From Methanobacteriota archaeon (GTDB lineage: Archaea; Thermoplasmatota; Poseidoniia; Poseidoniales; Poseidoniaceae): a DNA stretch of 35,133 bases. Where the stretch lies: positions 1 to 35,133 of the forward strand of contig JAAZXA010000073.1 in the NCBI GenBank assembly GCA_014240385.1, read 5' to 3'. This document shows, in pieces, positions 31,391 through 35,054 of this stretch (position 1 is its first letter; every line of letters starts with the position of its first letter). The notes under the pieces were generated by a model. That model saw only the letters and a list, made by a program, of their open reading frames with translations, was not told where the DNA came from and made no database searches. Made by a program: the position numbers and the translations under genes.

Positions 31391-32020
31391 ATGCAGTTAG
31401 AATGTCCAGTTTGTGCAGAACATATTCCTGCTTCCAGTGAGGTTTGTCCAGTTTGTGCAGAGGCAACTAATTTCAATGATTCACTTGGATTGGCCGCTGG
31501 AGATGCAGGGATTGAATGTCCGGTTTGTGCCGAAGTAATCGATTTCTCCTGTGATGTTTGCCCTGTATGCGCTGAAGCAACAGGATTTACCGAGGCTATT
31601 CCTGCGGGTGGCCTTGAATGTCCAGTATGTGCAGAAATCATAGATCCCTCATGTGATATGTGCCCAGTATGTGCAGAACCAACCGGTTTCACAGACATGG
31701 GATATGTCGATGATAGCATGGAGTGTCCAGTTTGTGCAGAAAATATTCCTTCAGCGAGTCAAGTCTGTCCAGTTTGTGCAGAACCTCTCGAAATGGAAAC
31801 CTCCACTCCTGCTCCAACTGCCGCCCCAGAGGCTGCGGTTGCGGCTATGCCACCTTCTCATCCAGAGCACGACGAGGTCTTGATGAGTGCCGATGGAGAG
31901 ACTTGGGATCTTGTCAAAGACAGCAACAACATCGCTGATATTGAGTATTATCTGGAAAATTATCCAACTGGGAAGTATTCCGTTCCAGCCAAACTGAAAC
32001 TACGGCAATTGAGCCGCTGA
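31391..32020 (+). CDS. Tandem double-zinc-ribbon protein (eight CPVCAE motifs)
   Basis: The 209-aa protein consists of four repeats of about 35 residues. Each has the form ECPVCAE-x10-CPVCAE, so there are eight CxxC pairs, enough for four zinc sites (about 1-140). A Pro/Ala-rich linker follows. The C-terminal segment of about 55 residues, IADIEYYLENYPTGKYSVPAKLKLRQL, matches the yP.GkY...A..rL helical motif found near caspase-like and TPR-type proteins. A GAGGG site lies before the ATG, 24 bases after the CBS gene. The repeated motif is almost identical in sequence, which suggests recent expansion. It may be a scaffold or nucleic-acid/protein-binding protein; function unknown. Confidence 0.72.
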   Translation: MQLECPVCAEHIPASSEVCPVCAEATNFNDSLGLAAGDAGIECPVCAEVIDFSCDVCPVCAEATGFTEAIPAGGLECPVCAEIIDPSCDMCPVCAEPTGFTDMGYVDDSMECPVCAENIPSASQVCPVCAEPLEMETSTPAPTAAPEAAVAAMPPSHPEHDEVLMSADGETWDLVKDSNNIADIEYYLENYPTGKYSVPAKLKLRQLSR

Positions 32021-32370
32021 AAGTGGTTTGGAATCATTCGTAATCGGGTAATCAACCCTTGCAAGACCGACGCGTGATAAACCCATCAGAGGGTTACAGT
32101 AGATTGAATTTAGATTCACAAGGGTCTGAACAGGACATCCTAAAGTCTTGAAACAAAATTCACACCACCTCTCAACTCTAACCACGCGAAGCCCATACGA
32201 ACACCATCGTTTGGATGGGTAGCGTTCCGACTGGCCCACTGCAACCCCTTCCAACTATCTGCAATAATGCAGAGGGGTTTCGGATGAACCCCTCCAACAC
32301 ATCCGAGTTGGTTAGTTGATGCTTCCAACAAATGCATTCAATGGATTCCCATACAGAGAAGCCAGTTGGC
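32021..32370. other. Convergent intergenic region with structured element
   Basis: No credible gene lies in these 350 bp between the convergent zinc-ribbon gene and the DUF3592-like gene. Short inverted repeats occur early (AACCC-ATCAGA-GGGTT near 32086-32101). The part 32191-32311 is dense in hairpins and is described separately. The rest shows nothing else I can name; no intact tRNA, RNase P or SRP RNA motif was seen. Confidence 0.6.
32191..32311 (+). ncRNA. Candidate structured RNA, possibly a diverged copy of the 101-bp repeat
   Basis: Stems on the plus strand are CCCAT-A-CGAAC / GTTTG-G-ATGGG (32192-32219, one A/G mismatch and one G-U pair), CTGCA-ATAA-TGCAG (32259-32272), AGGGGTT-TCGGATG-AACCCCT (32273-32293, directly adjacent) and CCAAC-ACATCCGA-GTTGG (32294-32311). 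The seven-base loop TCGGATG is fully complementary to CATCCGA at 32300-32306, which allows a pseudoknot, and AGGGGTT can also pair with AACCCCT at 32243-32249, an alternative fold. G-U pairs favour the plus strand. The direction and the RNA nature are inferences. Confidence 0.4.
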
Positions 32371-32973
32371 CTACTTCGGTCCTTCTGTGCCCGAATTCCG
32401 CCCGAACCACACCCAGCCATATTCGGGGCCTTTCAATCCCCTCATCAGGGCGACGTACCCAATATAGGACAGCACGAGTGGACTGAGGGAGGGGCCGTGG
32501 ATGTACATCATCGCCTGCAAGGTGAAACCCGGATAGACGTCAATCTCCGAAGGATCATCAGGATTGTAGGCGATGGATTCCATGTCTAGGTAATCCTGAG
32601 ATCCGGTCAAACACTGTGTATTCCATGGAAACAAATCGTGCGCGTCATTCTGGCCAGATGCTGATTGAGAAATCTCGTACTGGCATTCGAAAGACGAGTT
32701 GTATTGCTCGCCATCTACCTCATAATGGAAGAAGAAGACGTATGAGTGCTCATCTGCTTCAAGATCCTGTTCGACCGAGAGGACGTCTGTCTCTGGCCAA
32801 TTTTCGGACCTGATTTCATCCACCACGTCAAATCCACCCCATATGGCAGAGAGAAAGATGCCCAGAATGATGCCGACTGCGCCGATCCCGATGAACATCA
32901 TCCGTTTCTCATCATCGTCCGAGATTGTTTCTTCTTCAGATGGAGCATCTTTCATGGTGCGAGCATCTCTCAT
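32371..32973 (-). CDS. DUF3592-like membrane protein
   Basis: The 200-aa protein has an acidic N-terminus, a membrane helix (about 25-45, FIGIGAVGIILGIFLSAIW), an external domain and a second hydrophobic segment near 165-182. The external part starts with SENWPETDVLSVEQ and contains YVFFFHYEVDGEQYNSS and YNPDDPSEIDVYPG, the pattern of DUF3592 proteins, whose function is unknown. The ATG at 32971-32973 is used; a second in-frame ATG six codons later (32955) is possible and no ribosome site at proper distance decides. It points away from the MFS gene. Confidence 0.68.
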   Translation of the reverse strand: MRDARTMKDAPSEEETISDDDEKRMMFIGIGAVGIILGIFLSAIWGGFDVVDEIRSENWPETDVLSVEQDLEADEHSYVFFFHYEVDGEQYNSSFECQYEISQSASGQNDAHDLFPWNTQCLTGSQDYLDMESIAYNPDDPSEIDVYPGFTLQAMMYIHGPSLSPLVLSYIGYVALMRGLKGPEYGWVWFGRNSGTEGPK

Positions 32974-33007
32974 GGCGCGGTGTTTTCACCTGACTAATTG
33001 AGGCTAT

Positions 33008-33033
33008 CCCCCCACATGGATACAGAGGGGGGG
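33008..33033. repeat. GC-rich inverted repeat between divergent genes
   Basis: CCCCCC (33008-33013) and GGGGGGG (33027-33033) can pair over a 13-base loop. It lies 35 bases before the start of the DUF3592-like gene and just before the first copy of the 101-bp repeat. Its role is unknown; it may mark a boundary of the repeat region. Confidence 0.4.
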
Positions 33034-33061
33034 CCCATGCAACTAACGGGTGTCGAATGGG

Positions 33062-33162
33062 TAGGCAGTGTACTGGGGGACTGAACACCCATTGTACTCT
33101 TCCATAATGTCTTGAGGGGTATGAGAGAACCCTTACGATTTCATGGGAATGATATGTCAGTT
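33062..33162 (+). repeat. 101-bp direct repeat, copy 1 (three-hairpin element)
   Basis: This copy matches 34954-35054 without gaps, with nine differences (about 91% identity); 55 bp (33066-33120) are identical. On the plus strand it folds by eye into three hairpins. H1 is 33067-33100 (AGTGTAC-TGGG paired with CCCA-GTACTCT, one T-T mismatch and a two-base bulge). H2 is 33115-33134 (AGGGGT with ACCCTT). H3 is 33138-33155, where TCAT-GGGA-ATGA is closed by a GNRA-type loop. A T-rich run (33161-33171) follows, as for an archaeal terminator. It ends 100 bp before the MFS gene start, so it may be a leader RNA, a small RNA or a mobile intergenic element. Confidence 0.85.
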
Positions 33163-33211
33163 ATTTTTTCTACTTTGTACCATAACTGCAAAAATAGTTG
33201 CTAGAAGAATA

Positions 33212-33230
33212 ATTGACGACTAATACAACC
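33212..33230 (+). repeat. 19-bp inverted repeat, left copy
   Basis: ATTGACGACTAATACAACC occurs here and its exact reverse complement at 34840-34858. The left copy ends 32 bases before the MFS ATG at 33263. With the terminal A/T pair left out, TAA precedes the left end and follows the right end, which would fit a 3-bp target duplication. It could instead be an operator or promoter element. Confidence 0.85.
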
Positions 33231-33262
33231 GATTGATAAAGTATCGCCAAACCACCAATGGT

Positions 33263-34813
33263 ATGGCTACTCTCCATTCACACCATGAGAAGCGGTGGAT
33301 TATCCTTGGGATTATGAGCCTCAGCCTCATTATCGTCATGCTCAACAATGTCACTCTCAACGTAGCATTGCCTAACTTAGCACTTGATTTGAAACTCAAA
33401 TCAAATAGTGAAATGCAGTGGATTGTAGATGCATATGCACTAATATTCGGTGGAACTCTGTTAGTTATGGGTTATCTTGGAGATCGTTTTGGTCGTAGAA
33501 GTGCCTTACAACTAGGCCTGGTAATATTAGCCAGTTCAGCAGGGTGGGCGGCATTTTTTGCTGAAACAGCAAGCCAAGTAATCGCTGCTAGAGCGTTGAT
33601 GGGTTTGGGGGCGGCATTGGTAATGCCCGCTACGCTGTCGATTGTAATTGTTGTATTTCCTAAAGAGGAACGCGGTAAGGCAATTGGAATATGGGCTGCT
33701 ATGGCGGGGATCGGTGCCCCAATTGGATTGCTTGTTGGGGGCTATGTCATGGAACATTACGATTGGCAAACCGTATTCTTGATCAATGTACCAATCATTT
33801 TATTGGCACTTATTATTGGAGCAATTTATGTTCCTGAATCGAAAGAAGCAAAAACGACACCATTAGATTGGATCGGTTCAATATTATCAATTTTAACTTT
33901 AAGCGCAATTCTCTATGGGATTATAGAAGGTCCAAATTTAGGGTGGAATAGCAACGAAGTAATCGCGGCCTTTGTAATAGGAATTATTTCGCTAATAACC
34001 TTCATAAAATGGGAAAAGAAGACGGAATATCCGATTTTACCAATGTCGTTTTTCTCAAATAGGGGATATACTGTGGGGCTTGTGGCTATTGGCCTTGCAT
34101 TTTTCGTTATGTTTTCATTTATGTTTATGCAGATGCTTCATTTCCAATTGGTCAGAGGATATTCGCCGCTTGAAGCTGCCATTCGTTTCTTCCCATTACC
34201 ATTTGGCTTAATGCCAGCAGCAGCCAATAGTGACAAGCTAGTCGCAAAATTTGGCGTTAATAGGGTTGTAGGAACTGGATTACTATTAGTTACCTTGGCT
34301 TTAGCAATTTTCTCACAAGTCTCGATGGAAACACCTTACATAATATTGGCAATGATGTTTTGGTTCCTTGGTTTAGGAATGGGATTGACAATGGCACCTT
34401 CAACTACAGTTGTCATGGATGCGATACCAGAAGATAAGGCTGGAGTTGGTAGTGCTACTAATGATGCTAGCCGAGAAGTTGGAGGCGCATTAGGAATCGC
34501 GATTGGTGGTAGTGCGTTGAATGAATTATATCAAAGAACCATAGTAATTCCAGACGGGCTAGAAGGTTATACGGATATGATCAACAGATCGTTCCCCGAA
34601 GCGATAAGATTTGGCCGGGAACTGAAAATGAAAGGAGACCCTGCCGGGGATATTTTGATTGAAAATGCCCGCTTAGCATTCATAGAAGGAATGCAAGCAT
34701 CATCTCTTATTGCAGGAATTATAGCTTTGACAGCATCAATCTTTGCTTATCGGATGATGCCTAAAAAGGTCATTGTCGCTGAAGTTAAGCAGTTGAAAGA
34801 GGAAGAAGAATAA
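33263..34813 (+). CDS. MFS transporter, DHA2 (EmrB/QacA-like) drug:H+ antiporter family
   Basis: The 516-aa inner-membrane protein with about 14 hydrophobic segments carries MFS motif A (GYLGDRFGRR, about 71-80), a motif-C-like stretch (GIGAPIGLLVGGYV) and the DHA2 pattern DWQTVFLINVPI. Proton-driven export of toxic organic compounds or metabolites is expected; the substrate cannot be read from sequence. The frame is open to a TTG at 33233, but the ATG at 33263 gives the usual short tail before the first helix. No ribosome site is visible. The gene lies alone inside a 19-bp inverted repeat and a 101-bp direct repeat, so transfer or duplication is likely. The DHA2 group is common in bacteria, which allows horizontal origin, but that is an inference. 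Confidence 0.88.
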   Translation: MATLHSHHEKRWIILGIMSLSLIIVMLNNVTLNVALPNLALDLKLKSNSEMQWIVDAYALIFGGTLLVMGYLGDRFGRRSALQLGLVILASSAGWAAFFAETASQVIAARALMGLGAALVMPATLSIVIVVFPKEERGKAIGIWAAMAGIGAPIGLLVGGYVMEHYDWQTVFLINVPIILLALIIGAIYVPESKEAKTTPLDWIGSILSILTLSAILYGIIEGPNLGWNSNEVIAAFVIGIISLITFIKWEKKTEYPILPMSFFSNRGYTVGLVAIGLAFFVMFSFMFMQMLHFQLVRGYSPLEAAIRFFPLPFGLMPAAANSDKLVAKFGVNRVVGTGLLLVTLALAIFSQVSMETPYIILAMMFWFLGLGMGLTMAPSTTVVMDAIPEDKAGVGSATNDASREVGGALGIAIGGSALNELYQRTIVIPDGLEGYTDMINRSFPEAIRFGRELKMKGDPAGDILIENARLAFIEGMQASSLIAGIIALTASIFAYRMMPKKVIVAEVKQLKEEEE

Positions 34814-34839
34814 CCGCACGAGATGCGTCAACCATTGTA

Positions 34840-34858
34840 GGTTGTATTAGTCGTCAAT
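34840..34858 (-). repeat. 19-bp inverted repeat, right copy
   Basis: GGTTGTATTAGTCGTCAAT is the exact reverse complement of 33212-33230. It starts 26 bases after the MFS stop codon (TAA at 34811-34813). Together the two copies enclose a 1647-bp unit with one gene and no transposase, the size of a typical insertion sequence. Confidence 0.85.
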
Positions 34859-34953
34859 AATGTCTAGATAGGATATACTCAAGGGTTAGTCGCAAAAACC
34901 TACTTAGACAAATGAAATACACACATGGGCTTGCTATGGGCCATACACATCGC

Positions 34954-35054
34954 TAGCCAGTGTACTGGGGGACTGAACACCCATTGTACTCTTCCATAAT
35001 GTCTTGAGGGGTTTGAGAAAACCCTCGTGATTTCGTGGAAATGATATGTCGGTT
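34954..35054 (+). repeat. 101-bp direct repeat, copy 2 (three-hairpin element)
   Basis: This is the second copy of the 33062-33162 element, in the same orientation, 1892 bp downstream. H1 is identical. In H2 the two A/G changes make GGGTTT-GAGA-AAACCC, a longer stem with a GNRA-type loop. In H3 one A-T pair becomes a G-T pair and the loop changes from GGGA to GGAA, still GNRA. It lacks the T-run that follows copy 1. Confidence 0.85.

Follow-up and report, generated by a model that had tools for sequence, protein, structure and literature searches.

A dispersed repeat of Poseidoniales as an end of mobile gene cassettes, probably moved by a serine recombinase

Introduction

Few archaea of the surface ocean are as common as Poseidoniales (Marine Group II). 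To our knowledge no member of the order has been cultured, and little is known of the way in which these archaea gain genes. The stretch of DNA considered here (the window, 35,133 nucleotides of a draft Poseidoniaceae genome) carries, close to its right end, a gene for a major facilitator superfamily (MFS) transporter with a copy of a repeat of about 100 bp on either side. What is such a repeat doing there? Is it an RNA, a passive duplicate, or the working end of something that moves genes? We argue that this repeat, L1, is an end of mobile gene cassettes of Poseidoniales, and that half-site exchange at a TA dinucleotide by a serine recombinase builds these cassettes into arrays, a reading to which we give a probability of roughly three in four. 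No earlier description of a Poseidoniales cassette system was found in the literature searched, most subscription papers being outside its scope.

The window as a cassette array

The first-pass annotation, made from the letters alone, described two 101-bp direct repeats enclosing the transporter gene. The repeat is real: a search of the window for repeats returned 33057-33162 and 34949-35054 as a single two-copy family (90% identical, spacing 1892), and in a search of the source genome the copies matched each other at 91% over 101 bp (E = 2.9e-35). Conservation extends over a unit of 102 bp, and the same draft genome has two more copies, one partial and one at a contig end. Are the copies a pair? 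They do flank the MFS gene, but they do not enclose it, as the MFS cassette closes with an inverted end of another type and not with a second L1 copy.

TA cores lie at 32220, 33062 and 34954, and from the letters three putative cassettes can be read between and beyond them (Table 1). Cassette A would span 32220-33062 and hold the gene for a 200-aa protein; cassette B would span 33062-34954 (1,892 bp), with the MFS gene and an inverted L2-like half-site at its close; cassette C would start at 34954 and leave the contig, which does not cover its end. Cassettes B and C each begin with L1, and thus the two repeats of the window are the same end of successive cassettes. A genome of the other family (G081) has DNA 86% identical to that of the 200-aa cargo, and the far-end type that closes cassette A, the third such type, also stands left of other L1 copies. 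The fragments at 32065-32200 are probably the start of the array, and suggest that it begins near 32025. Adjoining this probable start is a 209-aa open reading frame of repeated ECPVCAE/CxxC motifs (31391-32020; five DNA repeat copies).

Table 1. Features of the putative cassette array, in positions of the window
Feature	Position	Strand	Basis and remarks
Degenerate F-like half-site and inverted remnant of the 70-nt extension	32065-32200		By eye
L2-like end of preceding cassette (A)	32218-32350	+	TA 32220-32221; weak profile match, E = 3e-4; right limit approximate
Cargo of preceding cassette (A), 200-aa protein without Pfam match	32371-32973	-	Open reading frame, Pfam search
Far end of preceding cassette (A), GGGGGGCCCATGCAACTAACGGGTGTCGAATGGG-TA	33003-33063		Third far-end type; limits approximate
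L1 end, copy 1, left end of MFS cassette (B)	33060-33161	+	Central TA 33062-33063
Cargo of MFS cassette (B), MFS transporter	33260-34813	+	PF07690, 4.8e-54; frame may begin at TTG 33233
Far end of MFS cassette (B), diverged inverted L2-like half-site	34900-34955	-	Ends in TA 34954-34955; limits approximate, homology judged by eye
L1 end, copy 2, left end of next cassette (C)	34952-35053	+	Central TA 34954-34955

End types and the central TA

How is a cassette delimited? Its accessory genes, one or a few in number, lie between ends that are unlike each other: L1 or L2 on one side and, on the other, F, an L2-like end in inverted position or a further type. Where L1, L2 and F adjoin one another, which they do in several combinations, TA always stands at the junction. 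On its left L1 is bounded by G[GC]TAG, with T in 98%, A in 99% and G in 100% of 106 sites, and the consensus of 79 copies starts with GGTAGGC and ends with ATGTCGGT. F reads ACCCTCTGTATACCCTTGCGACAGGCGTCTCACGCGTCGG-TA and L2 reads TA-GCGTCTGTATCGACCCACTGAA. Counts of the pairings, which are indicative because the search patterns were hand-made, gave L1 with some other half 79 times, F with another 37 and L2 with another 20, besides F with L1 (6), L1 with L2 (6), F with L2 (2) and F with F (2). The halves that face L1 at 76 sites give the consensus TACCCTTTG, which towards the site reads CAAAGGG-TA, and the target halves follow CAAWGGG-TA over 7-9 bp beyond TA.

Half exchange at a fixed dinucleotide is a mark of serine recombinases. 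Judged from these junctions, half-sites appear to have been exchanged at a fixed central dinucleotide, TA, whose palindromic nature would explain why both orientations occur. L1, at 102 bp, is longer than half-sites usually are, and such an exchange does not account for the inner 60 bp. About half of the L1 copies are followed on the right by an extension of 36-70 nt (TGTCTGTATCARCCCAYRAGAGACGGTGTGAA..., for example L038 7413-7485); its start resembles the L2 end, and an inverted remnant of it lies at about 32120-32200 of the window. In an unoccupied intergenic region of another genome (G126; L172 after 2264) the palindrome TGCAAAGGTACTTTGCA resembles the inferred target CAAWGGGTACCCWTTG.

Mobility and cargo of the cassettes

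Do the cassettes travel? The first-pass annotation had offered a structured mobile intergenic sequence as one of its two readings, and the mobile half of that phrase is strongly supported. There are more than 100 copies; right of the site, homology is common to several genomes or genera, while left flanks are unrelated except at orthologous loci. A cassette with an HxlR regulator and an aldo/keto reductase recurs in three genomes (G015, G013, G020) and in two named MAGs. Five different neighbours adjoin it on the left, and its right neighbours also differ wherever the far end is readable, with both boundaries falling at TA. Cassettes are 86-97% identical across genera or families at different loci; a chromosomal locus that was compared is only 67-72% identical, across genera and within genus g11. 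At those cassette ends that could be checked, homology ends at TA, and the orthologue of the window's own left flank (G019:C21) has a different cassette after the site. Insertions lie at many different chromosomal places, copies occur at either end of genes and in both orientations, and accessory-gene cassettes with one site type in common occur as arrays. 'Mobile intergenic sequence' is too narrow a term for the repeat, which is a recombination end and moves together with genes.

Two comparisons show places that are occupied in some genomes and without a site in others. Two convergent conserved genes of G049 have 1,560 bp between them: L1 stands directly behind the stop codon of the first, and another site, L2-like, lies ahead of the next gene; in 11 relatives the same pair is 10-748 bp apart and has no site. 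At a gene end reading GAAGCATAG followed by GG, two genomes (G008, G037) have L1, one (G110) has an L2-like site and two (G101, G105) have no site. These comparisons are between species, so neither gives a base-exact empty site. Neither such a site nor a circular form of a cassette was found; for the L038 array the right flank is non-syntenic in relatives, and the left flank of L045 has too few orthologues.

On the right side 82 cargo genes were counted, which fall into 46 families; 54 of 81 have the 3' end towards the site. It includes MFS transporters, aldo/keto reductases, zinc alcohol dehydrogenases, HxlR regulators, PhoU and GST, as well as glycosyltransferase, metallophosphoesterase, PLD and many unknowns. 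IS200/IS605 elements with an omega RNA were suspected from a small gene and one of about 370 aa beside the site; they were ruled out when these genes proved to be HxlR regulators with an aldo/keto reductase or a zinc alcohol dehydrogenase.

Distribution

A DNA search located L1 sites in 26 of 98 Poseidoniales genomes, in both families, with a patchy distribution and frequently close to contig ends; the identity of full-length copies to those of the window is about 82-96%. A profile search of all loci gave 165 matches, of which 130 were unique and 108 strong. Among 84,980 prokaryote species genomes an exact 20-mer of the site occurs in 68 stretches, all labelled Poseidoniales, Poseidonia, Poseidoniaceae, Thalassarchaeaceae or plainly 'Euryarchaeota' or 'euryarchaeote', save two labelled Deltaproteobacteria. 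The latter (AH-558-G13, JAOMAZ01; L105 and L150) are on contigs of 63,577 and 45,855 bp, the sizes of two contigs (G002:C23 and G002:C4) of a genome of the window's genus, and the label is therefore probably wrong. As far as record titles tell, L1 cassettes are confined to Poseidoniales. The names AG-461-G23, AH-273-F07 and AH-558-G13 suggest single-cell genomes, and this makes metagenome chimaeras less likely. Could a virus or plasmid be the vehicle? The 20-mer has no match in 2.9 million viral contigs (IMG/VR), the L1 consensus none in phages or plasmids and the recombinase discussed below none in IMG/VR, and such a vehicle was ruled out on these grounds.

A candidate recombinase and a proposed mechanism

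Which enzyme might act at these sites? One cassette with an L1 site and an F end (L038; G066:C17, SI053_bin38, taken as Thalassarchaeaceae from its place in the second family) holds a 261-aa serine recombinase, SR (PF00239, 8e-32), and so has an enzyme of this kind inside, as a serine-recombinase-mobilised element would. It is the one case known of SR within a cassette with an L1 end; most cassettes are without it. The same cassette has a restriction-modification pair, a C5 methylase and an EcoRII-C-like enzyme (L038 7556-10509). The close SR family counts 10 genes at E < 1e-60 (256-270 aa). The motif W[AG]GGTAG occurs within 350 bp upstream of 7 of these 10 genes; among control genes, 2 of about 129 have it (p = 2e-8). 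For this count, SR genes that had been sorted with the controls were reassigned manually, two of them with the motif and two assumed to be without. The arms at several SR genes are unlike L1, which would follow if every SR had its own ends to recognise.

SR resembles CcrB/XisF and the large serine integrases: residues typical of the catalytic site are invariant, the protein covers about positions 5-245 of the CcrB model's 542 (far below the cut-off), and its predicted structure, a moderate model (pLDDT 79, pTM 0.49), matches Bxb1 and TP901-1 integrases over the catalytic and adjoining domains. The source genome's lone serine recombinase (G000:C65:86788-87471) is distant from SR (28%) and has no GGTAG core in the 480 bp upstream.

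It seems probable that the cassettes are moved by a serine recombinase. Each end abuts the central TA, around which, by sequence, the ends and chromosomal CAAWGGG-TA halves are recombined as half-sites in either orientation, with tandem and head-to-head arrays as the outcome. In the proposed mechanism the orientation of a cassette would not be fixed, because TA is palindromic. SR, encoded within a cassette that bears the same ends, would cut at TA, excise and insert cassettes and move those that lack SR in trans. No match to SR (E <= 1e-12) was found in 18 of the 26 site-bearing genomes, one of them with 8 sites at 94% completeness (G046), and the co-occurrence of SR with L1 is modest (6/10 vs 20/88, p = 0.02); for this reason mobilisation in trans is something we infer.

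Alternative readings

Could another mechanism leave the same traces? If the cassettes were TA-target DDE transposons of the Tc1/mariner kind, TA would be a target duplication of 2 bp and the cassettes would be non-autonomous copies that carry passenger genes. TA stands at every junction, a palindromic target would permit both orientations, and most cassettes have no obvious mobility gene, as this reading would have it. The ends of a cassette are not inverted repeats of one another, however, the target consensus extends 7-9 bp beyond TA, a sample of about 50 cargo and neighbour proteins scanned contained no DDE transposase, and SR is linked to such sites. We consider this reading unlikely.

A passive dispersed repeat, with flanking genes swapped by homologous recombination between its copies, would account for many copies per genome, high identity and varied neighbours. 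Shared cassettes would then be expected to end at random points within the repeat, whereas they end at TA; the far ends are a separate conserved motif, and insertions lie at target-like sites. Its chances are a little poorer still.

The third candidate is an integron-like system in which a tyrosine recombinase acts at structured attC-like sites. Single-gene cassettes, tandem arrays, a conserved site of about 100 bp able to form hairpins and a PF00589 recombinase in all genera searched would suit it. The attC boxes RYYYAAC...GTTRRRY are nevertheless absent from the ends of the 79-copy consensus (read by eye), and no covariation accompanies the hairpins. As to an IntI-type integrase, one PF00589 gene is present in nearly every genome with or without sites, and none was found close to a site. 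We rate this reading slightly below the previous one. Tyrosine recombination of the XerA/dif type, considered for inverted arms around a 6-bp centre, was dropped because the PF00589 gene is near-universal and unlinked, whereas SR is linked.

Finally, the repeat had been read as a structured RNA element, and three hairpins can indeed be drawn in each copy; on the plus strand, though, neither copy folds better than its dinucleotide shuffles (z = -0.25 and -1.23). Across 79 distinct copies the named helices show double-sided change in 2 pairs (1.8 in shuffles), the covariation score is 0.061 (0.060 in shuffles) and the RNAalifold consensus is only -2.3 kcal/mol; an Rfam search gave no credible match, its one chance-level match lying elsewhere than the repeat. 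The two observations named in the first-pass annotation as telling against it come out differently: covariation is absent, which counts against an RNA, and further copies are abundant. A structured non-coding or cis-regulatory RNA that spread along with genes, for which the drawable hairpins and the conservation of 102 bp well into the end might speak, is the least probable of the four, given also that copies are found at both ends of genes and in both orientations.

Comparison with known systems

How does an SR-driven cassette system compare with known mobile DNA? Archaeal integrons exist (PMC9668308). The Poseidoniales arrays are like integron arrays in their cassettes of mostly one or two genes, conserved site of about 100 bp, tandem arrangement, mixed accessory cargo and exchange between species; unlike them, they have no attC boxes and no linked tyrosine integrase, two dissimilar ends, and many insertion places on the chromosome in both orientations. 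The system works like an integron array, yet on the features tested (attC boxes, linked integrase) it is not an integron. A broader claim, that it is a serine-recombinase counterpart of the integron found in Poseidoniales only, with two non-identical ends per cassette, half-sites interchangeable around a palindromic TA, many chromosomal CAAWGGGTA targets and the role of a main gene-exchange route among surface-ocean archaea, seems to us evenly poised between right and wrong.

The staphylococcal SCCmec and enterococcal ECC elements (CcrA/CcrB) also use serine-recombinase sites near the 3' ends of genes (PMC6222049). Cargo bounded by such sites is a shared trait, and CcrB is among the best named relatives of SR, but SR has 256-270 aa as against 542 CcrB model positions, the Poseidoniales insertions are at many loci and are not tied to the 3' end of rlmH, and the cassettes are of about 1-4 kb and mostly without an enzyme. 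IS607, with its serine transposase, offers a small serine recombinase, 2-bp exchange and weak target specificity; the match of SR to NF033518 is nonetheless partial, weak and below the cut-off, and the neighbours of SR in its cassette are the methylase and the EcoRII-like enzyme, not a TnpB partner.

The large serine integrases (Bxb1, TP901-1, phiC31) are known to exchange half-sites at a 2-bp centre. The predicted SR structure resembles them as described above; SR differs in lacking their C-terminal half with its zinc-ribbon/coiled-coil part, and the Poseidoniales sites differ in their palindromic TA centre and interchangeable end types. Charybdis elements of the same host order are mobile DNA too, in the form of uniform circles of about 4.6 kb with structural genes; when integrated they have an annotated integrase or recombinase, and several adjoin tRNA genes (PMC12324425). 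In these traits Charybdis differs from the cassettes.

Meaning and use

Abundant ocean archaea thus seem to own an integron-like gene-swapping system, a defined gene vehicle with recognisable ends and a candidate enzyme. A serine recombinase with a palindromic centre and exchangeable half-sites may interest DNA-engineering work. The ends can be searched by sequence, so the accessory gene pool can be catalogued in metagenomes, a catalogue that extends to the contig breaks probably caused by these repeats and would take in transporters, redox enzymes with HxlR regulators, glycosyltransferase and restriction-modification genes. Cassettes of one genome (G046; L040 121-4982 and L041 9596-13602) encode long secreted repeat proteins (SLAIDSNDNLHVTY...) whose repeat number varies between cassettes.
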